A stretch of 64,000 nucleotides of DNA, taken from positions 1 through 64,000 of the forward strand of contig CANIBP010000019.1 in the NCBI GenBank assembly GCA_947466075.1, in the 5' to 3' direction. Numbering within the stretch: position 1 is the stretch's first letter; the number at the start of each line of letters is the position of its first letter. A program made the position numbers and the translations under genes. The stretch is from Verrucomicrobiaceae bacterium. Its GTDB lineage: Bacteria > Verrucomicrobiota > Verrucomicrobiia > Verrucomicrobiales > Verrucomicrobiaceae. Below the pieces are notes generated by a model. It had not been told where the DNA came from. It searched no databases and saw only the letters and a program-made list of their open reading frames with translations. Shown here in pieces: positions 4,444 to 64,000 of this stretch.

Positions 4444-4465
4444 ACTGGTATGACCTCCTACCACA
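4444..4465. promoter_or_regulatory. FCD/GntR-type operator, copy 1
   Basis: ACTGGTATGACCTCCTACCA followed by CA is repeated exactly (22 of 22 bases) at 61086-61107. Its core GGT-ATG-ACC is a dyad of the GT-N-AC kind bound by FadR-like GntR regulators, and an outer TGGTA/TACCA pair brackets it. It lies 26 bases before the ATG of the FAH stub and about 200 bases before glcD, so glcDEF may be under the same regulator. The operator role is inferred. Confidence 0.6.
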
Positions 4466-4491
4466 GGTCTATTCCGATTCTTTCTCCACGC

Positions 4492-4562
4492 ATGAAACTC
4501 ATCCGCTTTGGCACCCACGATCACGAGAAACCTGGTGTCATCCTTGACGATGGACGCCGAAT
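4492..4562 (+). pseudogene. 5' stub of a fumarylacetoacetate hydrolase family gene
   Basis: The frame reads 'MKLIRFGTHDHEKPGVILDD' then 'GRRIG', the characteristic N-terminus of FAH-family hydrolases such as 2,4-diketo-3-deoxy-L-fuconate hydrolase, which normally continue to about 270-290 residues. After 23 codons it runs into an 8-bp tandem repeat and loses all similarity. The complete gene has therefore been lost, leaving its operator and first codons attached upstream of glcD. Another intact FAH gene is present at 54780 but is a different subfamily at its N-terminus. Confidence 0.65.
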
Positions 4563-4609
4563 CGGCGTGTCGGCGTGTCGGCGTGTCGGCGTGTCGGCGT
4601 GTCGGCGTT
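4563..4609. repeat. Tandem 8-bp repeat CGGCGTGT, 5.9 copies
   Basis: Five perfect copies of CGGCGTGT plus seven bases run from 4563 to 4609, exactly at the break point of the FAH stub. The 8-bp unit is not a multiple of three, so each gain or loss shifts frame. Since the gene behind it is already gone, it probably marks the deletion scar and is unlikely to be a working switch. Confidence 0.9.
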
Positions 4610-4661
4610 TGGGGCTGATTATAACGAGTTCTTTTTTTGGTGGCGGCGGCATGATGATTCA

Positions 4662-6071
4662 ATGACCTCACCTGTGACTTCATCTCTCGAACAACAACTC
4701 AAAGCGTTGCTGCCTCGCGGGCGTGTGCTGACTTCGGCAGCTCAGCTGGCGGGCTATGGCGCGGATGGCCTGGGTTATAAGAACCACCTTCCTGACGCCG
4801 TGGTGATTCCGGCGGATGCGGAGGAACTCGCGGGCTTCATGCACGGGGCGAAGTCGCTGGGGGTGCCGGTGGTGATGCGTGGAGCGGGCACTTCGCTTTC
4901 GGGTGGACCGGTGGCGGCGCAGGGTGGTGTGATCGTTCACACATCGGCGTTGAAGAAGATTCGGGAGATCAATACCGAGGGCTTCTGGTGTGAAGTCGAA
5001 TGCGGTGTGGGACTCAATGATCTTGATGCTGCGCTGAAGCCGCATGGCGTGTTCTATCCGCCTGATCCATCGAGTGGTCCGGTCTGCACGCTCGGTGGCA
5101 ATGTGGCGTCGAACGCGGGTGGCGCGCATTGTTTTCGCTACGGTGTGACGAGCAATTATGTGCTCGGAGTCGAGGCCGTGATGCTGGATGGCAGCGTGCA
5201 TCGCTTTGGCGGTCCTGCGGGTGGTCGCGGGCCTTGGCGTGAGGATTGGAAACGCTTCATGATCGGCTCCGAAGGCACTCTGGCGGCCTTCACGCGTTTT
5301 TGGCTAAGACTGCTGCCGCTGCCGGAGAAAGTGTGGACCTTCCGTGCGACCTATCCCGACATGAAAACCACCGAGGCGGCGATTCATGCGTTGGTGGCGC
5401 ACTCGTCGTATCCAGCGGCGATCGAGATGCTTGACCCGCGTGGCGTGGCGATGGTGGAGAGCAGTCAGATGGCTTGCGGATTGCCCGAGGGCTCGTTCAT
5501 GCTGCTGGTTGAGATTGATGGTCCTGAGGCGCTGGTGAATGCTCGCGTGCAGTCAGTCGCCGAGCTTTTGCGTCAGGCAGGCTCGAATGATGTGATGTTC
5601 AGCGATGAGGATGCACTTCGCCAAAAGCTCTGGAAGGCACGCAAAGCTGCGGGCGGACTGCTGGGGCAACTCAGCCCCGCATACGTGGTGCAGGACGCCG
5701 TGATACCGAAGCGGGCCTTGGCCGAGGTCCTGCAACTTGTCTATGATGAGGCCGATGCCGCGAATATTCGCGCGGTGAATGTCTTCCACGCAGGCGACGG
5801 CAATCTGCATCCGAACTTCCTCTTCGACTCGCGTGTTCCGGGGGAACTGGAGAAGGTGGAACTCATCAGCAAGCGTCTCATGCAGCGCGTCATCGACGTC
5901 GGCGGCACGCTCAGCGGTGAGCACGGCATCGGCAATGACAAGTCCGCTTACATGCCGCTGGTCTTCGGGCCGGACTCAATGCGTCTCCAACTCTCCGTGC
6001 CAGCCGCATTCAATCCCGCGCATCAAATGAATCCGCTCAAGGTTTTCGACAGTCGCCACTTCATCGCATGA
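4662..6071 (+). CDS. glcD: FAD-linked oxidase, glycolate/D-lactate oxidase subunit GlcD
   Basis: 469 residues from the ATG at 4662; the longer track ORF begins inside the 8-bp repeat and is rejected. The FAD-binding PP-loop 'RGAGTSLSGG' is at about 73-82, followed by 'ASNAGGAHCFRYGVTSNYVL'-type sequence. The C-terminal oxidase domain ends in the family signature 'GTLSGEHGIG' at about 414-423. GlcD oxidises glycolate or D-lactate to the 2-oxoacid with FAD, working with GlcE and GlcF at the membrane. Its stop overlaps the next ATG (ATGA), showing tight coupling. Glycolate versus D-lactate cannot be separated from the sequence alone. Confidence 0.88.
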   Translation: MTSPVTSSLEQQLKALLPRGRVLTSAAQLAGYGADGLGYKNHLPDAVVIPADAEELAGFMHGAKSLGVPVVMRGAGTSLSGGPVAAQGGVIVHTSALKKIREINTEGFWCEVECGVGLNDLDAALKPHGVFYPPDPSSGPVCTLGGNVASNAGGAHCFRYGVTSNYVLGVEAVMLDGSVHRFGGPAGGRGPWREDWKRFMIGSEGTLAAFTRFWLRLLPLPEKVWTFRATYPDMKTTEAAIHALVAHSSYPAAIEMLDPRGVAMVESSQMACGLPEGSFMLLVEIDGPEALVNARVQSVAELLRQAGSNDVMFSDEDALRQKLWKARKAAGGLLGQLSPAYVVQDAVIPKRALAEVLQLVYDEADAANIRAVNVFHAGDGNLHPNFLFDSRVPGELEKVELISKRLMQRVIDVGGTLSGEHGIGNDKSAYMPLVFGPDSMRLQLSVPAAFNPAHQMNPLKVFDSRHFIA

Positions 6072-10831: not shown

Positions 10832-13044
10832 TGCGATCTTCCATGAAACACGCCCTCACCCATCGAGACGACAAAAAGATTTGGGACAAAAACCGGAAGG
10901 CCCGAATCCTATTTTTCTGTCTCCAATCTTTTTGTCTTTCCGTCACCGCACTCCACGCCGCCGAGCCGGTCACCAACTCCATCGGCATGAAGCTCATGCG
11001 CATCGAGCCGGGCACGTTCACCATGGGCCAGGACGGGCCGCCGATGGAGGATTACCTGCGGCAAAAGCGGTTCGGCGAGATGCACAAGGATTTCGACCGG
11101 ATCGATTTTGATGAGAAGCCCGCGCACAAGGTCACCATCACGCAGCCATTTCAAATCGGAGTCACCGAGGTCACAGTGGCGCAGTATCGGCAGTTTGATC
11201 CCGAGTTTAAAAAGAACGACCCGAAGTCGAAGCCTGCGGATGACGATGCGGCGAGCGGTGTGACGTGGGAGCGGGCGGTGGCGTTCTGCGAATGGCTCTC
11301 GAAGAAGGAGGGCAAGACCTATCGCCTGCCAACCGAAGCGGAGTGGGAGTTTGCGTGCCGTGCGGGCACGACGACGCTTTTTCACACCGGCGGCACGTTG
11401 CCGGATGGGCATCAAAAGTGGTTCGGCGAGGACAACTTTCGCGGTGTGTATTTCCCAGCAGGACCAATGCCTCGCGAGTATGATTGGAGGAATGCCGGGA
11501 AGCCTGCGGCGAGCTTGAAGCAGGGGCAAATCATCGGCCTCACTCATCCGGTGGAGGAATCGAAGGCGGGTGGCTCGGGTGCATTGCGTGTGGCGCAGAA
11601 GACGCCGAATGCCTGGGGCCTGCACGACATGCATGGCAATGTGGCCGAGTGGTGCAGCGATTGGTATGGGCCGTATGAGAGCGGTGCGCAGACTGATCCG
11701 CTGGGGCGCGTGGATGGCGACTGTCGCGTGTTTCGCGGCGGGTTTCATTCGTCGATGATTCGCTTCCTGCGTTCGGCGAATCGCGGCTCGTGGGTGACGA
11801 ACTCCGCGAGCCCGCGTATTGGCTTCCGCGTCGTGCAGGGTGAGTTGCCGAAGGGAAAACCGCTGCCGCTGGCGGCGCCGCCGCTGAATGCGCAGAACGT
11901 GAGTCATCGTGATGCGGACACTCCTGTCCGCAGCGACTTCACGGACAAGAGTGTCCGTGTCACGGCAGATGCGCCGTTCTACGAAGGCCCGAAGCCTTAT
12001 GTGCGCATCCCGGATGGCGCTTTCGGCCCGGTATTCATCAGTCAGAATCACAGCCCGGCCATCACCGAGTGCCCGAATGGCGATCTGCTCGCCGTGTGGT
12101 TCTCCACCATGGGCGAAACCGATCTCACCACCGCAAACGCCGCCTCGCGGCTGCGTTATGGCGCAAAGGAATGGGAGCCGGCTTCATCGTTCTGGGACGC
12201 GCAGGATGTGAATGATCACGCACCGAAAATCTGGTGGGATGGCGACAAAACGCTCTACCACATCGTCGAAGGCCGACAGCATGGCGACATCCTGATCCGC
12301 CGCTCCACCGACAACGGCGTCACATGGTCCAAGGCCGAAGTGATGCGTGCGCACGGCGAGTCGGCGAGCCATCCCATCCGCACCAAGGAAGGCGTCATCG
12401 CGATCCCGTTCGACTTTTCCGGGCTCTCGATCAGCCGCGACAACGGCAAGAGCTGGAGCGAGACCGGGCGGGATCGTCGCGGTTCGGATGACATTCAACC
12501 CGGAGGCAAAGGCCCTTTCATCGCGGGCATTCATTCACCCATCGTCGAACTCGCCGACGGACGCCTCATGGCCTTCGGTCGTCTCTCAGCCGAGGAGCCC
12601 GCGCAAAAGCGTTTCGACCTCAAGATGCCCGTGAGCTACTCCAGCGACCTCGGCGAGACCTGGCAGTGGGAGGTCAGCGAGTTCCCCATCGTCAGCAACA
12701 CGCAGCGCCCCGCCATGCTGCGGCTCAAAGAAGGCCCCATCGTCCTGTGTTCCTTCACCGACCAGGCCCGCACGCCTTTCAAAGAACGCAAAGGCCTCAC
12801 CTTCAAATCCACCAGCGGCAACTACACCGGCATCGGCCTCTACGCCGCCGTGAGCTACGACGAAGGCAAAACCTGGCCCGACCGCCGCCTCATCGCCCCC
12901 GAAGGCAAAACCACCGCCGACATCAACGGCTACCTCGCCATCACCCAAACCCGCGACGGACGCATCCAACTCATCACCAGCAAGGACCACTACGCCTTCA
13001 ACCTCGCTTGGATCAAAGCGCTGGCGAATGGGCCGAAAAGGTGA
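10831..13044 (+). CDS. Secreted FGE-like (SUMF1) domain fused to a sialidase-like propeller
   Basis: 737 residues. The ATG at 10831 overlaps the previous stop; 10843 is an alternative. The leader is odd: a basic stretch then 'ILFFCLQSFCLSVTALHA', encoded by a palindromic element. Residues about 50-365 are a formylglycine-generating-enzyme-type domain ('SIGMKLMRIEPGTFTMG', 'YRLPTEAEWEFACRAGT', 'FRGGFH', 'RSANRG', 'GFRVV'). Residues about 390-735 are a BNR sialidase-like propeller ('SADGRLMAFGR'-type blades, 'SRDNGKSW'). The linker contains a second palindromic element. Such FGE-like domains often lack true FGE activity, so sulfatase activation should not be assumed. Likely an outer-surface or periplasmic carbohydrate protein. 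Confidence 0.75.
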   Translation: MRSSMKHALTHRDDKKIWDKNRKARILFFCLQSFCLSVTALHAAEPVTNSIGMKLMRIEPGTFTMGQDGPPMEDYLRQKRFGEMHKDFDRIDFDEKPAHKVTITQPFQIGVTEVTVAQYRQFDPEFKKNDPKSKPADDDAASGVTWERAVAFCEWLSKKEGKTYRLPTEAEWEFACRAGTTTLFHTGGTLPDGHQKWFGEDNFRGVYFPAGPMPREYDWRNAGKPAASLKQGQIIGLTHPVEESKAGGSGALRVAQKTPNAWGLHDMHGNVAEWCSDWYGPYESGAQTDPLGRVDGDCRVFRGGFHSSMIRFLRSANRGSWVTNSASPRIGFRVVQGELPKGKPLPLAAPPLNAQNVSHRDADTPVRSDFTDKSVRVTADAPFYEGPKPYVRIPDGAFGPVFISQNHSPAITECPNGDLLAVWFSTMGETDLTTANAASRLRYGAKEWEPASSFWDAQDVNDHAPKIWWDGDKTLYHIVEGRQHGDILIRRSTDNGVTWSKAEVMRAHGESASHPIRTKEGVIAIPFDFSGLSISRDNGKSWSETGRDRRGSDDIQPGGKGPFIAGIHSPIVELADGRLMAFGRLSAEEPAQKRFDLKMPVSYSSDLGETWQWEVSEFPIVSNTQRPAMLRLKEGPIVLCSFTDQARTPFKERKGLTFKSTSGNYTGIGLYAAVSYDEGKTWPDRRLIAPEGKTTADINGYLAITQTRDGRIQLITSKDHYAFNLAWIKALANGPKR
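10870..10936. repeat. Palindromic element A, copy 1, inside a signal-peptide coding region
   Basis: Left arm GACAAAAAGATTTGGGACA (10870-10888) and right arm TGTCTCCAATCTTTTTGTC (10918-10936) pair at 17 of 19 positions. The element lies wholly inside the coding sequence and supplies the charged leader and part of the hydrophobic core of the signal peptide. A second, perfect copy is at 40184-40250 and a lone right arm at 62620-62639. Confidence 0.85.
11914..11959. repeat. Palindromic element E at a domain linker
   Basis: Two adjacent hairpins, GCGGACA-ctcc-TGTCCGC (11914-11931) and CACGGACA-agag-TGTCCGTG (11940-11959), which are also roughly inverted copies of one another. They are translated in frame as part of the linker between the FGE-like and sialidase-like domains. 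This suggests an inserted element tolerated in a flexible segment. Confidence 0.75.
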
Positions 13045-33133: not shown

Positions 33134-36100
33134 ATGAAACCAGCCTTCAAAAAACCTGCTGAGCACACGATGACACGTAAAACAATGCGCGTTGAAAAAT
33201 GGCTGGCACTCATCGCCATCGCATCGTCTTCCATCCAAGCCTTTGCCGATCAAAAGCAGGTCTTCGAGCAAACCATTCAGCCTGTGCTGAAACAGTATTG
33301 CCTGGACTGTCACTCGACGAAGAAGCAGAAGGGCGATCTCGATTTGGAGCGCTTTACCTCACTCGATCTCGTGAAGCGTGATCCCGTCGTGTGGGAGCAT
33401 TCGCTGGATCAGATCCGCGACAAGGAGATGCCGCCGAAGGACAAGCCCCGGCCTTCGCCCAAACAGATGAAGCTTCTCTCGGACTGGATGCAGGGCACGC
33501 TGGATGACATCGCGCTCGCCAGCGCTGGTGATCCGGGGCCGGTGGTGCTGCGGCGTCTGTCGAACATGGAATACACTTACTCGATCCGTGATCTCACCGG
33601 CGTCCCGTCGCTCGATCCGGCGAAGGAGTTCCCCGTTGATGGTGCGGCTGGGGAAGGCTTCACCAACGCGGGTGCAGCTCTGGTGATGTCGCCTGCGTTG
33701 CTCACGAAATATCTCGATGCCGCGAAGGACGTGGCGAGCCACGCGGTGCTCACGCCGACAGGCATTCAGTTTTCCGCAGGCTCGTCATCGCGTGACTGGA
33801 CCGATGAGACACTGGCGAGGATTCGCGAGTTCTATGCTGAGTTCAGTGATACGACCGAGCAATCCGTCGCGGTCAATGGTGCTGAAAAAGTCAGTAACAA
33901 GGGAGGTCGGCTGCCGATCGACAAGTATCTGGCGGCCACTTTGCAGGAGCGTGCAGCCCTCGCCAGTGGCTCGAAGAAGATCGCTGATGTCGCGCGCGAA
34001 CGTCGCTTGAGCGCGAAGTATCTCGGGCTGCTATGGGCCATGTTGCAGGACAACAAACCCTCTGCGCTGCTCGATCCGCTGCGCGCGAAATGGCGCGAAG
34101 GCAGTCTGGCAGTGGCTGACATCGAAGCTTGGCAGCAGGCGCTTTGGCGCTTCACCAATATTGGACATCTGGGTAAAGTCGGCGGCCCGAAGTCCTGGCT
34201 GGAACCGGTGACACCGCTCGCGGCGCAGCATGAGTTGCGGATGAAGTTGCAGCCTCCGTCGGACGGCGGCGATCTCACGCTGTATCTCACCACCAGCGAT
34301 GCGGGGGATGGAAACGCGAACGATTTTGCCCTCTGGGAAAAAGCGCGACTCATCACGCCAGGTCATGGCGAGCTGCTCCTGCGCGATGTGCGCTCGGTCG
34401 TGCAACAGATGATGCGACATCGCGATACAGTGACAGAAAGCGTGGTGAGATGTCTCGCGGCAGCGAACGAGGCGACGAGTGCAGATGGCCGTCCTGACCT
34501 CCTCGCGCTTGCGAAGAAGCACAATGTCGATGGCAAAGTGCTCGCGGGTTGGCTGAATTACCTCGGCATTGGCACTGCGGGCGAAGTGAAACTGGAACCG
34601 CTGCTCGTGAAGAAATCGGAGCGCTCTCCGGCCTATGAGTTCATCAAAGGTTGGACCGGTGACAATGCTCTCAGCGTGCTGGCGAACTCCTCCGATGCCA
34701 CGGTGAAAATTCCTGGCACGATGCCGCCGCACAGCGTTGCCACACATCCCTCGCCGAAGCTTGCATCGGTCATCGCGTGGCGCAGTCCGGTCACCGGCAC
34801 GCTGCGAGTGAGCGGCAAACTTCAGGACGGGCACACGGTGTGCGGCAACGGCATCACCTATGCGCTGGAACTGCGGCGCGGCCAGACGCGCGAGGTGCTC
34901 GCCGCTGGCGAAAGCAAGGGCTCGACAGTGATCCCGATGGGACCGTTTCAAAACGTGCGCGTGATGACTGGCGATGTCATTGCGCTGGTCATCGATCCGC
35001 GCGATGGCGACCACACCTGCGATCACACGATGGTGAATCTGACCCTGAACGATGGTAAAACCGAGTGGGATCTCGCCAAGGATGTTTCGCCGAACATCCT
35101 GGCTGGCAATCCGCACGCTGACCGTCACGGCAACAAAGCGGTGTGGCATTTCCTGAGTCAACAAGCGGCGGGAGCGGCATCGTCTGTCATCCCCAGTGAT
35201 TCGCTGTTGTCAAAATGGCAGAAAGCGAAGGACGTCGACGAGTTTGCACGAATCGCTGCACAAGTGCAGCAGTTGCTCCAGCAAGACGCTGCAGCCTTGA
35301 AGGCGAGCCCGACCGATCGCGAACTGCGCAACCAGCTTCTCTCGTTCAACGGTCCGCTGCTCGCCGACGCATGGCGCTCGGTGAAAGCGCAGGCCGGAGA
35401 TGGCCCGGCGTCGCCTTACGGACTCGATCCTGCGATGTTCGGCAAGCATCCCAAAGGCGGCGAGGTTGCCGCGACGAGCCTCTGCGTGCAGGCACCGTCA
35501 GTCATTGAATTGAGACTCCCCGCATCGCTGCTGGCGGGCGCTGAACTGGTGACCACTGGCCGCTTGCATCCCGCCAGTGGCGGGGAAGGCAGCGTGCAAA
35601 TGCGGGCGCTCACCACGAAGCCAGCCGCGTTATCAGGATTGCAAGCCACGGCGGCAAGTTCGGCCAAGGAAGGCGGCGCATGGAACTCCAGCAAGCCCCC
35701 GGTGATTTTCGATTCGCCGATCCTGGTGCAAGATGGAAGCGCCGCACGTCAGCGTTTCGAAAGGGCCTTCGATGACTTCCGCGGCCTATTCCCTGCCGCG
35801 CTGTGCTACACCAAGATCGTGCCTGCCGATGAGGTGGTGACGCTGACCTTGTTCCATCGCGAGGACGAGCAACTCAGGCGATTGATCCTCGACGATGCGC
35901 AAAGTGCTGCGCTCGACCGCCTTTGGGATGAATTGCATTTCGTCAGTCAGGATGCCCTCACGCTGGTGGATGCCTTTGAGCAGATCTGGCAGTTCTCCTC
36001 ACAAGACGGCCCCGACGCGCCCAATGGCGACAAACGACTGGAGCCGCTGCGGGAGCCGATCATGCGCGGAGCCGAGGCCTTCAAGAAACTGCAAATCGAA

Positions 36101-37393
36101 GTGGAGCCCAAACAGGTGCAAGCAGTGCTCGACTTCGCCACGCAGGCATGGCGTCGCCCGCTCAGAGACACAGAGCAGAAAGAACTGCGCACCCTTTATC
36201 AAAAGCTGCGCACGCAGGAGATGCCGCACGCCAAAGCTGTGCGCATGATGCTTGCGCGAGTGCTCGTGGCACCGGCATTTCTCTATCGCGGCGAAAAAGC
36301 CGCGCCAGGACCAAAAGCCACGCCAGTGAACGATTGGGAGATGGCCACGCGCCTCAGTTACTTCCTCTGGTCCTCCGCGCCCGATGCCGAACTCACGCAG
36401 CTCGCTACCACAGGCAAACTCCAAGAGCCCGATGTGCTCGTCGCGCAAGTGAAGCGCATGATGAAGGACGAGCGCATCCGCCGCCTCGCCACCGAGTTTG
36501 GCTGCCAATACCTGCACGTCCGCGAAGTCGCCACACTCGATGAAAAGAGCGAGCGCCACTTCCCCACCTTCGTGAATGTGCGTGAGTCCATGCAGGAAGA
36601 AGTCACCCGCTTCTTCATCGACCTGTTTCAGAATGATCGCAGCGTGCTCTCGCTGCTCGATGCGGATTACACCTTCGTGAATGCGGAGTTGGCAGCACAT
36701 TACGGAATGAAGGCAGAAGAATGGGGGCAGAAAAATACTTCTGTTCCTCATTCTCCTGCCCCCATTCTTCTGCCTACTTCAGATTGGCACCGAGTGGATC
36801 ACATCCGTTCTCAAGGTCGCGGCGGCATCCTGGGCTTCGCTGCCACACTCGCGAAGCAAGCCGGTGCCTCGCGCACCAGCGGCATCTTGCGCGGGGCTTG
36901 GCTCTGCGAAGTGGTGCTCGGCGAGAAGCTTCCGGTTCCACCCAAAGGCGTGCCCATTCTCCCCGAGCAACCGCCCGAAGGTCTCACCGAACGCCAACTC
37001 GTCGAGAAGCACAGCTCGGATGCGAACTGTGCTGCCTGCCACCGCCGCATTGATCCCTTCGGCTTTGCCCTTGAAGGCTTCGACGCCATCGGACGCTCTC
37101 GCAAAGCCGACACGAAGGTCTTATTGCCAGATGGCTCTCGCGTCGATGGTCTTGACGGCTTGCGCAGTTACCTGCTGGACAACCGCAGCGATGATTTCTT
37201 GCGTCAGTTCTGCCGCAAGTTGGTCGGCTATGCCTTGGGCCGCAGCGTGCAACTCTCGGACAAGCCGTTGATCGCTTCCATGCTCACCCAACTCAAATCC
37301 GGCGACCACAACGTCGGTGCCGCCATCGAGTTGATCGTTCGCAGTCCGCAGTTTCGCGAAGTGCGCGGTAAAGATTTCGTCGTCCATAACTAA
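33134..37393 (+). CDS. Secreted DUF1592-family haem protein with an in-frame palindromic insert
   Basis: 1419 residues. Starts at 33134, 33170 or 33185 are possible; the signal peptide 'KWLALIAIASSSIQAFA' follows the last. Order as in the paralogue at 24885: haem motif 'CLDCH' near 56, DUF1587 ('LRRLSNMEYTYSIRDLTGVP'), long variable middle, DUF1595/DUF1592 ('ATRLSYFLWSSAPDAELTQL'), DUF1588 with 'NCAACHRRIDPFGFALEG' near 1298, and DUF1585. Relative to the paralogue an extra segment of about 20 residues ('WGQKNTSVPHSPAPILLP') lies between 'HYGM' and 'DWHRVDHIRSQGRGG'; it is encoded by a perfect palindrome. Likely partner of one of the flanking DUF1552 proteins. Confidence 0.85.
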   Translation: MKPAFKKPAEHTMTRKTMRVEKWLALIAIASSSIQAFADQKQVFEQTIQPVLKQYCLDCHSTKKQKGDLDLERFTSLDLVKRDPVVWEHSLDQIRDKEMPPKDKPRPSPKQMKLLSDWMQGTLDDIALASAGDPGPVVLRRLSNMEYTYSIRDLTGVPSLDPAKEFPVDGAAGEGFTNAGAALVMSPALLTKYLDAAKDVASHAVLTPTGIQFSAGSSSRDWTDETLARIREFYAEFSDTTEQSVAVNGAEKVSNKGGRLPIDKYLAATLQERAALASGSKKIADVARERRLSAKYLGLLWAMLQDNKPSALLDPLRAKWREGSLAVADIEAWQQALWRFTNIGHLGKVGGPKSWLEPVTPLAAQHELRMKLQPPSDGGDLTLYLTTSDAGDGNANDFALWEKARLITPGHGELLLRDVRSVVQQMMRHRDTVTESVVRCLAAANEATSADGRPDLLALAKKHNVDGKVLAGWLNYLGIGTAGEVKLEPLLVKKSERSPAYEFIKGWTGDNALSVLANSSDATVKIPGTMPPHSVATHPSPKLASVIAWRSPVTGTLRVSGKLQDGHTVCGNGITYALELRRGQTREVLAAGESKGSTVIPMGPFQNVRVMTGDVIALVIDPRDGDHTCDHTMVNLTLNDGKTEWDLAKDVSPNILAGNPHADRHGNKAVWHFLSQQAAGAASSVIPSDSLLSKWQKAKDVDEFARIAAQVQQLLQQDAAALKASPTDRELRNQLLSFNGPLLADAWRSVKAQAGDGPASPYGLDPAMFGKHPKGGEVAATSLCVQAPSVIELRLPASLLAGAELVTTGRLHPASGGEGSVQMRALTTKPAALSGLQATAASSAKEGGAWNSSKPPVIFDSPILVQDGSAARQRFERAFDDFRGLFPAALCYTKIVPADEVVTLTLFHREDEQLRRLILDDAQSAALDRLWDELHFVSQDALTLVDAFEQIWQFSSQDGPDAPNGDKRLEPLREPIMRGAEAFKKLQIEVEPKQVQAVLDFATQAWRRPLRDTEQKELRTLYQKLRTQEMPHAKAVRMMLARVLVAPAFLYRGEKAAPGPKATPVNDWEMATRLSYFLWSSAPDAELTQLATTGKLQEPDVLVAQVKRMMKDERIRRLATEFGCQYLHVREVATLDEKSERHFPTFVNVRESMQEEVTRFFIDLFQNDRSVLSLLDADYTFVNAELAAHYGMKAEEWGQKNTSVPHSPAPILLPTSDWHRVDHIRSQGRGGILGFAATLAKQAGASRTSGILRGAWLCEVVLGEKLPVPPKGVPILPEQPPEGLTERQLVEKHSSDANCAACHRRIDPFGFALEGFDAIGRSRKADTKVLLPDGSRVDGLDGLRSYLLDNRSDDFLRQFCRKLVGYALGRSVQLSDKPLIASMLTQLKSGDHNVGAAIELIVRSPQFREVRGKDFVVHN
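36711..36775. repeat. Palindromic element B, copy 1, in frame within DUF1592 gene
   Basis: Left arm GGCAGAAGAATGGGGGCAG (36712-36730) and right arm CTGCCCCCATTCTTCTGCC (36756-36774) are perfect inverted copies, one more base pair extending each end. The loop is 25 bases. The whole element is translated. The paralogous protein at 24885 lacks it at the aligned position, which supports insertion. A partly eroded copy is at 59288-59335. Confidence 0.92.
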
Positions 37394-38741: not shown

Positions 38742-40211
38742 ATGCCGACCGTCATGCGGGCTCTTTTTCTTCTCGCGCTGGCGTGCCAAGCCGCGCCAGC
38801 CGCCGATGCTGCTTTATCGAAAAAGCCCAACGTTCTCTTTGTCGTCTTCGACGACTTGAACAACCGCCTTGGCTGTTACGGCGATCCGGTGGCGAAGTCG
38901 CCGAACCTTGATCGGCTTGCGGCTCGCGGCACGGTGTTCACGCGGAACTTCTGCCAGCAGCCGATTTGCGGTCCATCGCGCGCCTCGTTCATGAGCGGGC
39001 GCAGGCCTGACTCGCTGGGCATCTGGAGCATGACGAAGTATCTCTACGATCTGCATCCAGATGCGGTGACGATGCCGCAGTGGTTCATGCAGCACGGCTA
39101 CACGTCCATGAGTATTGGCAAAGTGCTTGGCGGCTATGGCAAGGAAGCGGACTTCAAGACACTGAGCGTGCCGGATCGTCGCACGGGCGGCAAAACGAAG
39201 GATGAGTTTGCCTTGCCAAATGGAGCTGCTTTGCCGCCAAACCTCGCGAAGGATCTGCTCTGTGAGAGTCGCGATGTGCCGGACGAAGCGTGCTTTGACA
39301 ACGTGTCGGCCAGTCTCGCGATTACCGAGTTGCGGGCGCTTGCGAAGAAGCCAGAGCCGTTCTTTCTCGCGCTGGGCATCTTCAAGCCGCACACGCCTTA
39401 CAAGGTGCCGAAGCGCTACTGGGACATGTATCGTCGAGAGGACATCCCGGCCATCGAGACGCCCGCACGGCCTCGCAACGCGCCCGAGATCGCCTTTCAC
39501 GCGAACCACGAAATCCTTGGCGAGCCGACTGTCCGCCGCACACTCGATGAGGATGCCAAGCGCGAGATCCGTCACGGTTACTATGCCGCGATGAGTTTCG
39601 CCGACGCGCAGTTTGGCCGCGTGCTGGATGCGCTCGATGAACTGAAGCTCCGCGACAACACCATCGTCGTCATCATTGGCGACAACGGCTTTCATCTTGG
39701 CGAGCACGATGTCTGGGGCAAGATGACCTTGTTCGGCTGGGACGCCCGCGTGCCGCTCATCATCAGCGCTCCAGGCATCGGAAAGGGCGGCGCGAAGACC
39801 AGCGCCATCAGCGAGTTGATCGACGTCTTTCCCACGCTCACGGACCTCAGCGGTCTTCCATCTCCTCCTCAGTTCGACGGCACTAGCCTCGTGCCGGTCC
39901 TCAAGGACTCCTCAGCCACCGTGAAAGCCGCCGCGCTCACGCAGCATCCACGCCCTGCTCTTTACTGGGGCGGCGGACCGCAGGCCTTGCCGCAAGTGAT
40001 GGGCTACGCGCTCAAAACCGACCGCTGGAGCTACCATGAGTGGCGCGACTTCAACACCGGCCATGTGGTCGGCCAGGAACTCTATGACGAGCAAACCGAT
40101 CCGCTCGAAACGGTGAACCTCGCAGGCACCGTTGAAGCTGCGGCACAGATCCCCGCGCTTGCTAAGCAACTCCGATCAATAACGACAAAAAGATTGGAGA
40201 CAAAAAGATGA
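38742..40211 (+). CDS. Secreted sulfatase, iduronate-2-sulfatase-like
   Basis: 489 residues from 38742 (an in-frame ATG at 38754 would give a cleaner signal, 'MRALFLLALACQAAPAADA'). Sulfatase hallmarks: metal-binding 'LFVVFDDLNNRLGCYG', the formylglycine motif C-x-P-S-R in 'QPICGPSRASFMSGRRP', 'FLALGIFKPHTPYKVP', 'VVIIGDNGFHLGEHDVWGKM' carrying the second metal Asp-Asn. Cys-type, so it needs an FGE. The last dozen residues ('RSITTKRLETKR') and the stop codon come from palindromic element A. The substrate would be a sulfated glycan; desulfation position unknown. Translation is coupled to the next sulfatase by ATGA. Confidence 0.88.
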   Translation: MPTVMRALFLLALACQAAPAADAALSKKPNVLFVVFDDLNNRLGCYGDPVAKSPNLDRLAARGTVFTRNFCQQPICGPSRASFMSGRRPDSLGIWSMTKYLYDLHPDAVTMPQWFMQHGYTSMSIGKVLGGYGKEADFKTLSVPDRRTGGKTKDEFALPNGAALPPNLAKDLLCESRDVPDEACFDNVSASLAITELRALAKKPEPFFLALGIFKPHTPYKVPKRYWDMYRREDIPAIETPARPRNAPEIAFHANHEILGEPTVRRTLDEDAKREIRHGYYAAMSFADAQFGRVLDALDELKLRDNTIVVIIGDNGFHLGEHDVWGKMTLFGWDARVPLIISAPGIGKGGAKTSAISELIDVFPTLTDLSGLPSPPQFDGTSLVPVLKDSSATVKAAALTQHPRPALYWGGGPQALPQVMGYALKTDRWSYHEWRDFNTGHVVGQELYDEQTDPLETVNLAGTVEAAAQIPALAKQLRSITTKRLETKR

Positions 40212-40250
40212 GGAATAGAAATCCATTTTTCTGTCTCCAATCTTTTTGTC
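40184..40250. repeat. Palindromic element A, copy 2, at a sulfatase-sulfatase junction
   Basis: Left arm GACAAAAAGATTGGAGACA (40184-40202) and right arm TGTCTCCAATCTTTTTGTC (40232-40250) are perfect over 19 bases. The left arm encodes the C-terminal tail of the upstream sulfatase. The loop holds the overlapping stop and start (ATGA at 40208). The right arm encodes the first hydrophobic residues of the next signal peptide. Confidence 0.92.
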
Positions 40251-41761
40251 GCGCTGTTTTCATCGCGCTGCTGCTGCTTGCTCCGACAGCTGGAGTGCAT
40301 GCTGAGGCATTACTGAAGAAGCCCAACGTCCTGTTCATCGCCATCGATGATCTGAAGCCTCTGCTCGGCTGTTATGGCGCATCGTGGATCAAGTCGCCAA
40401 ACATCGATCGCCTCGCATCGCGCGGCACGCGGTTTACGGCGAACTACTGCCAGGTCTCCTTCTGCGCGCCTTCGCGCTTCAGTCTGCTCACAGGTTTGCG
40501 GCCGGATACGACGCGCGTCGTAGTCAATCCCGCGAAGCAGGACGACCTTCTGCGCAAGCGCTTCCCGGACATCGTCACGCTGCCGCAGCACTTCAAAAAC
40601 AACGGCTTCCTTACCTGCGCCATGGGCAAGGTCTTCGATGGTCGGACCGTGGACGACGGCCATGACACCGCTTCGTGGTCGGTGCCGTATGTGCGTCGAT
40701 TTGATGAAGCGCCCGGCGGTCTTGGCAAGCCGCCAGGTTATCAAAACAAAAGCACGCAACAACAACTCGCCGCTGCCGCATCCGGCATACAAGGGCCGCC
40801 GGTGGAGTGCGAGGACGTTCCCGACAACGCCTACTACGACGGTGCGATGGCGCGCACTGGAGCGGCGAAGATCCGGGAGTTTGCGAAGGCAAAGCAACCG
40901 TTCTTTCTCGCGGTTGGATTCTTGCGACCGCATCTGCCATTCATAGCGCCGAAGAAATATTGGGACCTCTACGACCGGGCAAAGCTGCCGCTCGCTCCCT
41001 TTCAAACGATGCCTGCCAGCAGCCCGCACGACCTCGCCTTTTACAGCAACTCCGGCGAGCTGCGAGCCTGGTCGGATGTGCCAAAGACCGGCCTGATCCC
41101 CGAGACGCTTCAGCGCGAACTCATCCATGGATACGCAGCCTCGGTTTCTTACAGCGATGCCAATGTCGGCCTGTTGATGGCCGCGTTGGAAGAAGCTGGC
41201 GCGCTTGAGAACACCATCGTCTGCGTGTGGGGCGACCACGGCTGGCATCTCGGTGAGCACGGACATTGGGGCAAGGTCACCAACTACGAGGATGCGACCC
41301 GCGCGCCACTCTTCATTGCCGCGCCCGGCCATAGACAGGGCGCAGAGGTGAAAGCCATCACGGAGTTCATCGATGTCTATCCCACACTCTGCGATCTCGC
41401 CGGCCTGTCGAAGCCAGCGCATTTGCAAGGCACCAGCCTCACGCCTTTGCTTGGCGAGTTGCGGACCACGCTGCACGAAGCTGCGATCAGCCAGATGACT
41501 CCCAACGCCAGCAAGGATGGCGTGATGGGTTGGACACTGCGCACGCCACGCTACCGCTATATCGAATGGCGTCGCGCCGACCTTAGCACCGAAACACCTC
41601 ACATCACCGATCAAGTCGAGTCCGTCGAACTATACGACTACCAGACTGATCCGCTCGAACGCGAGAACCTCGCAGGCAAGCCGGATCACCTCGCCGCACT
41701 CAAAGAGCAACAAGCCCTCTTCGACAAACTGCTGCCGCATCTGCCGAAGCGCTTGGAATAA
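40208..41761 (+). CDS. Secreted sulfatase, iduronate-2-sulfatase-like, second copy
   Basis: 517 residues. The leader 'FFCLQSFCRAVFIALLLLAP' begins within palindromic element A and continues into normal signal sequence. Hallmarks: 'LFIAIDDLKPLLGCYG', formylglycine site 'VSFCAPSRFSLLTGLRPDT', 'FLAVGFLRPHLPFIAPKKYW', 'VCVWGDHGWHLGEHGHWGKV' and a C-terminal 'YRYIEWRR' segment. The IDS-like arrangement is shared with the upstream sulfatase but identity is moderate, so they probably hit different sulfate positions. Together with the preceding gene it forms a coupled pair; the ABM gene follows after 17 A-rich bases. Confidence 0.88.
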   Translation: MRNRNPFFCLQSFCRAVFIALLLLAPTAGVHAEALLKKPNVLFIAIDDLKPLLGCYGASWIKSPNIDRLASRGTRFTANYCQVSFCAPSRFSLLTGLRPDTTRVVVNPAKQDDLLRKRFPDIVTLPQHFKNNGFLTCAMGKVFDGRTVDDGHDTASWSVPYVRRFDEAPGGLGKPPGYQNKSTQQQLAAAASGIQGPPVECEDVPDNAYYDGAMARTGAAKIREFAKAKQPFFLAVGFLRPHLPFIAPKKYWDLYDRAKLPLAPFQTMPASSPHDLAFYSNSGELRAWSDVPKTGLIPETLQRELIHGYAASVSYSDANVGLLMAALEEAGALENTIVCVWGDHGWHLGEHGHWGKVTNYEDATRAPLFIAAPGHRQGAEVKAITEFIDVYPTLCDLAGLSKPAHLQGTSLTPLLGELRTTLHEAAISQMTPNASKDGVMGWTLRTPRYRYIEWRRADLSTETPHITDQVESVELYDYQTDPLERENLAGKPDHLAALKEQQALFDKLLPHLPKRLE

Positions 41762-62604: not shown

Positions 62605-64000
62605 ATGAAGCCCATCTATCTGTCATCCATCTTTTTGTCATTGCTCTGCGTCACCAACCACGCAGCCGACACCGCATTCTTCGACTCCAAAGTCCTGCCC
62701 ATCCTCCAGCAGCGTTGCTTTGAGTGCCACTCGCACGGAACGAAGATCAAAGGTGGCCTCGCTTTGGATTCACGCTCTGGCTGGGCGGAGGGCGGAGACA
62801 ATGGTCCCGCCATCAAGCCCGGCCAATTAGAGGAAAGTCTGGTCATCAAAGCGGTCCGCTATGTGGACTCGGAGTTCGAAATGCCTCCAAAGGCCAAGCT
62901 TCCTGCCAGCGAGATCGCCATTCTCGAAGAATGGGTGAAGCTCGGTGCGCATGACCCGCGAACCGCTGGGACCGGAAAGCAAAAGAAAGGCATCGACCTC
63001 GCCGAAGGCCGGAAGTTCTGGGCCTTCAAACCCGTGAGCAACCCCAAGCCTCCGCTCGTTAAGAATGGCGCATGGCCACTTGATCCGCTGGATCATTTCA
63101 TCCTCAAGCCGCTAGAAGCCATGGGCATCAAGCCCGTGGGTGATGCCGATCGCTACGCTTGGCTTCGTCGTGTAAGCCTTGATCTCACCGGCCTGCCGCC
63201 GACAGCGCAGGAGATTGAATCGTTTTCAAAAGACTCGTCATCCGATGCGTGTGCGAATGTTGTGGATCATTTGTTAAACTCCAAAGCCTACGGCGAGCGC
63301 TGGGCACGCCACTGGCTCGATCTCACCGGTTATGCCGACATGATCGGCACGTCGAACGGCGTGTTCGCAGAGCACGCGTGGCGCTATCGCGATTACCTCA
63401 TCAACGCCTTCAATGCCGACAAACCCTTTGATGAGTTCGTGCGCGAGCAGATCGCGGGTGACTTGATGCCATCGAAGTCCACCGAAGATCACGCCCAAAA
63501 AATCATCGCCACTGGCTTCCTCATGGTGGGCGACATCGAGATCGTGAACCCGGACAAGGCGAAGATGGAGACCGATCACATCGATTCCCAGATGATCAAA
63601 ATCGGCCAGACCTTCATGGGCATGACGCTTGGCTGTGTGCGCTGCCATGATCACAAGTTCGACCCCATCGGAGTCGATGATTACTATGGCATCGCCGGCA
63701 TGCTGCGCAGTTCACCCTCCTCGCACAAAATGCCCAATATGGGCGTGTGGAGCACCATCAACAGCACCGCATTGCCTGAGACTCCGGCTCAGCTTGTTGC
63801 GCGCAAAAAGCTCGAAGCCGAGAACGAACAACGCATCGCAAGTCTCAAGGTCGAGCAAAAGAAGCTCACCGACGAGAAAGCCACTGTCGCCAAACAACTC
63901 GCCGCTCTTGGCAAACCCACAGCGCCAGCATCAAAAGTCGTCGCCGCTACGGACAACGCACAACGCGACATTAAGACCAATGCTGACACCAAGCCAGCTA
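62605..64000 (+). CDS. PSCyt1/DUF1549-family protein, partial at the window edge
   Basis: Open from the ATG at 62605 to the end (465 codons, no stop), so missing from the ORF track. Leader 'MKPIYLSSIFLSLLCVTNHA', in which 'LSSIFLSL' comes from a lone arm of palindromic element A. Planctomycete-type cytochrome c domain with 'RCFECHSHGTKIKGGLALDS' (C-x-x-C-H near 39-43) and 'MPPKAKLPASEIAILEEWVK'. DUF1549 follows: 'YAWLRRVSLDLTGLPPTAQE', 'RWARHWLDLTGYADM', 'FDEFVREQIAGDLMP', 'GCVRCHDHKFDPIGVDDYYG'. A coiled-coil tail begins near the edge. DUF1553 would be expected next. Redox-type secreted protein of unknown activity. Confidence 0.87.
   Translation, partial: MKPIYLSSIFLSLLCVTNHAADTAFFDSKVLPILQQRCFECHSHGTKIKGGLALDSRSGWAEGGDNGPAIKPGQLEESLVIKAVRYVDSEFEMPPKAKLPASEIAILEEWVKLGAHDPRTAGTGKQKKGIDLAEGRKFWAFKPVSNPKPPLVKNGAWPLDPLDHFILKPLEAMGIKPVGDADRYAWLRRVSLDLTGLPPTAQEIESFSKDSSSDACANVVDHLLNSKAYGERWARHWLDLTGYADMIGTSNGVFAEHAWRYRDYLINAFNADKPFDEFVREQIAGDLMPSKSTEDHAQKIIATGFLMVGDIEIVNPDKAKMETDHIDSQMIKIGQTFMGMTLGCVRCHDHKFDPIGVDDYYGIAGMLRSSPSSHKMPNMGVWSTINSTALPETPAQLVARKKLEAENEQRIASLKVEQKKLTDEKATVAKQLAALGKPTAPASKVVAATDNAQRDIKTNADTKPA
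62620..62639. repeat. Lone right arm of palindromic element A
   Basis: CTGTCATCCATCTTTTTGTC matches the element A right arm CTGTCTCCAATCTTTTTGTC at 17 of 20 bases and lies at the same functional place, the hydrophobic core of a signal peptide. No left arm is visible, so it is a half element or a chance match. Confidence 0.5.

Follow-up and report, generated by a model that had tools for sequence, protein, structure and literature searches.

The described systems closest to the element reported here are the REP/REPIN sequences, the Rickettsia palindromic elements (RPE) and the MITEs. REPs are defined by a conserved GTAG-like tetranucleotide preceding a palindrome (PMC8266576), and a REPIN consists of two REPs in inverted orientation (PMC8049555). 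RPE are short palindromes lying in frame in unrelated protein genes, in which they form new peptide segments (PMC10969869). The window analysed here, a stretch of 64,000 nucleotides from a Verrucomicrobiales metagenome-assembled genome of 6.4 Mb (G000 below), holds a palindrome at the junction of two sulfatase genes. Its arms are also the ends of longer cassettes that carry a gene of the GxxExxY family (TIGR04256 / PF13366), a family that is common in environmental bacteria and to which, to our knowledge, no role has been assigned. Homologous sulfatase junctions occur without the element, copies are reused at the starts of unrelated exported genes, and the reading frame through the window copy is intact. 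We conclude that the palindrome is probably a gene-less, non-autonomous, MITE/REPIN-like derivative of a hairpin-ended GxxExxY cassette, co-opted as a translation start and as an extension of a signal peptide.

The palindrome at the sulfatase junction

The element is an imperfect palindrome of 67 nt (40184-40250) that is perfect in its outer 19 bp (GACAAAAAGATTGGAGACA / TGTCTCCAATCTTTTTGTC), with Watson-Crick pairs at 25 of 27 arm positions, or 26 if G-U is included. Scored as an inverted repeat, its arms are 28 nt long (40183-40210 and 40224-40251), 93% complementary and separated by a 13-nt loop. Each arm is made of two 15-bp units, GACAAAAAGATTGGA and GACAAAAAGATG, the second being truncated, and the 27-mer of the arm (at most three mismatches) is matched three times in the real window as against none in 100 window shuffles. 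Coordinates of the features are collected in the table.

Features of the window and the basis on which each was placed
Feature	Position	Strand	Basis
Left arm, units GACAAAAAGATTGGA GACAAAAAGATG; holds sulfatase 1 tail TTKRLETKR*, GGAG and ATG	40184..40210	+	sequence, repeat search
GGAG, Shine-Dalgarno-like, in left arm, 8 nt 5' of ATG	40196..40199	+	sequence; kept in six orthologs
Palindrome loop, 13 nt; n-region residues of sulfatase 2	40211..40223	+	sequence, repeat search, alignment of copies
Right arm, translated PFFCLQSFC; hydrophobic part of lengthened signal peptide (predicted)	40224..40250	+	sequence, arm translation
Sulfatase 1 (PF00884); final 9 residues element-derived	38742..40211	+	ORF, domain match
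Sulfatase 2 (PF00884); start codon within element, ATGA overlap	40208..41761	+	ORF, domain match, ortholog comparison
Second full copy, entirely within N-terminus of FGE-sulfatase/BNR protein (DDKKIWDKNRKARILFFCLQSFCLSVTALHAA)	10866..10940	+	pattern and covariance-model search, translation
Half copy consisting of the right arm; provides the start of a PSD1-type gene: MKPIYLSSIFLSLLC	62605..62643	+	copy search, translation
Related-class palindrome (unit GGCAGAAGAATGGGG), in frame within PSD1-type gene 33134-37393: KAEEWGQKNTSVPHSPAPILLPTSD	36708..36778	+	covariance model, reading frame

Sulfatase 1 ends in ...SITTKRLETKR* with its stop at 40211, and the last nine residues are encoded by the left arm. 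The ATG of sulfatase 2 (40208) overlaps this stop as ATGA inside the palindrome, which also encodes MRNRNPFFCLQSFC of sulfatase 2 and gives that gene its ribosome site, its start codon and its first 14 residues. The first-pass annotation had described an element with 19-bp arms encoding this tail, the ATGA and the beginning of the second signal peptide, a description that we confirm with the qualification that perfect pairing is confined to the outer 19 bp; the stop, overlap and start inside the palindrome likewise bear out its statement that a hairpin has become a gene junction. Automatic gene calling begins sulfatase 2 too far downstream, since the AT-rich element is scored as non-coding; for element-borne genes, starts were therefore determined manually and from orthologs. 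Two observations support a start at 40208: Shine-Dalgarno sequence, ATG and frame persist in six orthologs, and no start codon precedes the R-A-V/L residues of sulfatase 2, which align with the first residues of an element-free ortholog.

The purine arm translates in its three frames as DKKIGDKKM, TKRLETKR and QKDWRQKD, and the pyrimidine arm as HLFVSNLFV, IFLSPIFL and SFCLQSFC, so that the purine/pyrimidine make-up of the arms yields basic and then hydrophobic residues in any frame and in either orientation. Judged from the genetic code, a class A palindrome would fit the start of a signal peptide, and export of the protein is predicted. Signal peptides were assessed by eye and by a crude rule. 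The basic-then-hydrophobic reading is evident in class A but less pronounced in classes B-D, which are related to it.

Dispersed copies and element-free junctions

About nine full or half copies are found in G000 (contig C19 at 10868, 40184, 62613, 66613 and 70690; C41 at 27617; C60 at 11592 and 20266; and a diverged copy on C5 at 20526). A covariance model detects the element in 20 of 56 relatives, and the strict pattern in one other genome among 387 sampled across the phylum, which makes class A clade-limited. Read by hand in G000 and its relatives, 31 of 40 copies encode the first residues of a protein, five lie just 5' of a start and four are ambiguous; several of the 40 are orthologous sites and do not represent independent events, the initial search pattern ended in ATG and favoured copies at starts, and the same pattern supplied the copies from which the covariance model was made. 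Most of the start-encoding copies read M-K-N-R-N-P-FFCLQSFC or IFLSPIFLS, after which come a run of hydrophobic residues and an Ala-rich site resembling a cleavage site, and the genes downstream of copies belong to unrelated families (sulfatases, FGE-sulfatase/BNR, M20 peptidase, BD-FAE esterase, GSDH-PKD, PSCyt, GH43 and DPPIV_N). Of the seven copies on contig C19, six are no more than 100 nt away from where an exported gene starts; under random placement this has P about 5e-7. Such proximity is partly expected, as co-directional spacers always adjoin starts; a start codon and a hydrophobic segment inside the element are not. A bias of copies to gene starts, which the first-pass annotation had proposed to look for genome-wide, is thus present at the starts of exported proteins. 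A further four copies, the majority from a related class, are embedded in frame within genes; one of these, at 36708-36778, resembles the Rickettsia palindromic elements. A tandem array of the 15-bp unit GTCAAAAAGATTGGC stands ahead of a palindrome (G020:C511, 1441-1527), which suggests unit expansion at an end. Copies have also spread with duplicated or transferred operons, and the hairpin is dispersed and probably mobile.

Two relatives show the sulfatase junction without it. G014 has the same pair of genes (sulfatase 2 is 71% identical) joined as ...ATCACGAAGGGAGGACGTCCGTGAGAGCG..., and its sulfatase 2 starts MRALSWILSLAVLACSAVAA, already with a signal peptide and with a GTGA overlap with sulfatase 1. 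The junction of G043 is also element-free, with sulfatase 1 ending in ...KITKGGRP* and again a GTGA overlap. Sulfatase 2 of G000 retains its native signal peptide as RAVFIALLLLAP, after the 14 added residues. The earlier proposal that the insertion provided translational coupling and an export signal at once is therefore unsupported: both homologs already have the overlap and the signal peptide of G014 is complete, its counterpart in G000 being kept downstream of the added residues. The junction and the signal were there before the element, which occupied and extended them and created neither. G043 in turn has an element before sulfatase 1, where G000 lacks one, which gives two positions within one operon, and these two positions are independent. 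In G007 (G007:C3, about 67950) the order is DUF1501-element-sulfatase 2 and sulfatase 1 is absent, as if recombination between two copies had deleted it.

GxxExxY cassettes with the same ends

The arms of the palindrome, inverted, flank a gene of about 263 codons in G043, G022 and G024. The gene encodes a GxxExxY protein (TIGR04256, PF13366) of the PD-(D/E)XK nuclease superfamily, and the solitary palindrome has the same termini as the cassette, TGACAAAAAG...CTTTTTGTC. The nuclease gene lies between class A termini in G043, G022, G024, G056, G058 and G213, and between variants of them in G032, G210 and G015. That the arms are cassette termini had escaped the first-pass annotation, which called the element mobile; dispersal and probable mobility stand. 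The window copy has only its 13-nt loop between the arms, sharing the ends of the cassette and lacking the gene. G000 has no class A cassette, its two long GxxExxY genes having ends of classes C and D, so that a partner for the window element must reside in relatives or have been lost.

A profile of the long GxxExxY proteins, which start with MPI, has matches in 36 of 68 family genomes. The nuclease signature (E..Y, D, ExK) is invariant. Inverted ends scoring at least 30, mostly 15-bp units like GRCARRARRATGGGG, were found at 27 of 30 long loci, in a comparison in which 12% of mismatched pairs also reach that score. The short GxxExxY genes (about 140 codons) have the same layout with other units, for example ACGGAACACACGGAA, GACAGGATTAACAGGATT and CACAGAGGACACAGAGG. 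Over the GxxExxY loci of relatives, inverted ends occur at 34 of 40, against 0 of 222 pseudo-genes and 0 of 72 shuffled pairs from the same genomes, and across the Verrucomicrobiota at 24 of 30, against about 1% of 191 pseudo-genes. The ends match in direct orientation too at about half of the 40 loci, a pattern expected of ends that are themselves hairpins. In general, GxxExxY ends consist of short tandem units, and often each end is a hairpin. A comparison of the nuclease with solved structures and with PADLOC gave no match.

At the junction of the PSD1 and DUF1501 genes a cassette is present in G058, G213, G056, G022 and G043 and an 18-bp spacer stands in its place in G000, a substitution and not a simple addition, for which loss in G000 is indistinguishable from gain in the others. 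Comparison of filled with empty sites at the sulfatase and PSD1/DUF1501 junctions revealed no recognisable target-site duplication, and no very recent transposition was seen in the genomes compared. A likely decayed cassette lies at G020:C511 4365-5369, where a long GxxExxY gene, broken into two matches (4456-4959 and 4938-5222), stands between two palindromes. We found no description of the inverted ends of GxxExxY genes in the open-access literature, and a search there on palindromes at signal peptides, GxxExxY and PF13366 returned nothing relevant.

Origin of the element and relation to known systems

In the history that we propose, a short gene-less and probably non-autonomous element, with arms equal to the inverted ends of the long GxxExxY cassettes, would have been moved in trans by the nuclease, and a copy would have inserted at the translational junction of the two sulfatases, replacing both the final residues of sulfatase 1, with its stop, and the sulfatase 2 start. 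The copy may have been kept because its purine arm supplies GGAG, 8 nt and ATG together with Lys/Arg codons, and its pyrimidine arm Phe/Leu/Cys/Ser codons. It would now provide both the translation start and an additional n/h-region ahead of the native signal peptide, the longer signal peptide presumably being functional. The sulfatase 1 frame passes through the left arm, so that an arriving ribosome could open the hairpin, and sulfatase 2 may be translated by coupling in this way. More broadly, and tentatively, the GxxExxY nucleases may be the mobilising enzymes of a new class of bacterial mobile elements with ends formed by short-tandem-unit hairpins, whose gene-less hairpins would act as portable modules for translation start and signal peptide, a role that follows from a purine/pyrimidine palindrome reading basic then hydrophobic in every frame and either orientation. 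Hairpin-ended cassettes carrying the nuclease suggest a testable role for this family, and the gene-less form a route from mobile DNA to the starts of secreted proteins, which bears on how repertoires of exported enzymes such as the verrucomicrobial sulfatases are rewired.

A retained regulatory hairpin controlling the translation of sulfatase 2 could also explain why the palindrome persists, and the first-pass annotation had suggested such control by an mRNA hairpin over the start codon. The predicted fold of 40150-40290 is indeed highly stable (-50.4 kcal/mol, z -6.6), with the Shine-Dalgarno sequence and AUG inside the stem, and that part of the suggestion holds. Across the six orthologs, however, the coding signals are unchanged while stem energy varies between -18.2 and -45.5 kcal/mol and the number of paired positions between 19 and 27 of 27, and 20 copies show little covariation. 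A conserved regulatory hairpin is accordingly unsupported, we regard this explanation as improbable, and the data favour retention of the element for its coding rather than for its hairpin. Maintenance of the hairpin by compensatory change finds no support in the weak covariation and the variable stem.

The copies might instead be the product of 5'-end shuffling, in which recombination and gene duplication spread a signal-peptide segment and the palindrome is incidental. Some copies do occupy orthologous or paralogous sites (sulfatase 2 in several genomes, the FGE paralogs in G001), and the missing sulfatase 1 of G007 is what recombination between two copies would leave; but copies precede unrelated families, occur in frame inside genes and untranslated in spacers, have arms that are cassette ends, and are missing from sulfatase junctions with otherwise conserved flanks, and we consider this account unlikely, though less so than the regulatory hairpin. 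Slightly less probable than the regulatory hairpin is a REP/REPIN moved by RAYT (TnpA_REP, a Y1 HUH transposase). The element is an inverted doublet with a short variable loop, scattered in spacers, and G000 has three Y1_Tnp genes, but these three loci contain no sequence resembling class A-D arms (scores 12-20, at background), an alignment of 20 copies shows no GTAG tetranucleotide before the arms, and the arms adjoin GxxExxY genes instead. RAYT was rejected as mover of these arms on the ground that the three Y1_Tnp loci are not flanked by them. Two of the Y1_Tnp (RAYT-like) genes, on G000:C16 and C33, are bordered by their own strong inverted flanks, which bear no relation to the palindrome arms.

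The derivation from a GxxExxY cassette that we prefer places the element between several known systems. With REPIN/RAYT systems (REPtrons) it shares the inverted doublet hairpin, the scattered copies and a single nuclease gene with these repeats on both sides (PMC8049555, PMC8266576), and it differs in that the nuclease is of the PD-(D/E)XK type (GxxExxY) and not a Y1 HUH enzyme, in the missing GTAG motif, and in having arms of 15-bp direct units, about nine copies, and translation. In layout it is like the RPE, being also a palindrome in frame in unrelated protein-coding genes; unlike them it measures 67 nt as against about 150, sits mainly at the starts of exported proteins and is tied to a nuclease cassette with the same ends. 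As in a MITE, the element carries no gene and has terminal inverted repeats in common with a longer, gene-carrying element, here that of GxxExxY, although there is no classical transposase and no target-site duplication was recognised. The gene of the cassette is a member of the GxxExxY family (TIGR04256 / PF13366), and the window element is the form without it.
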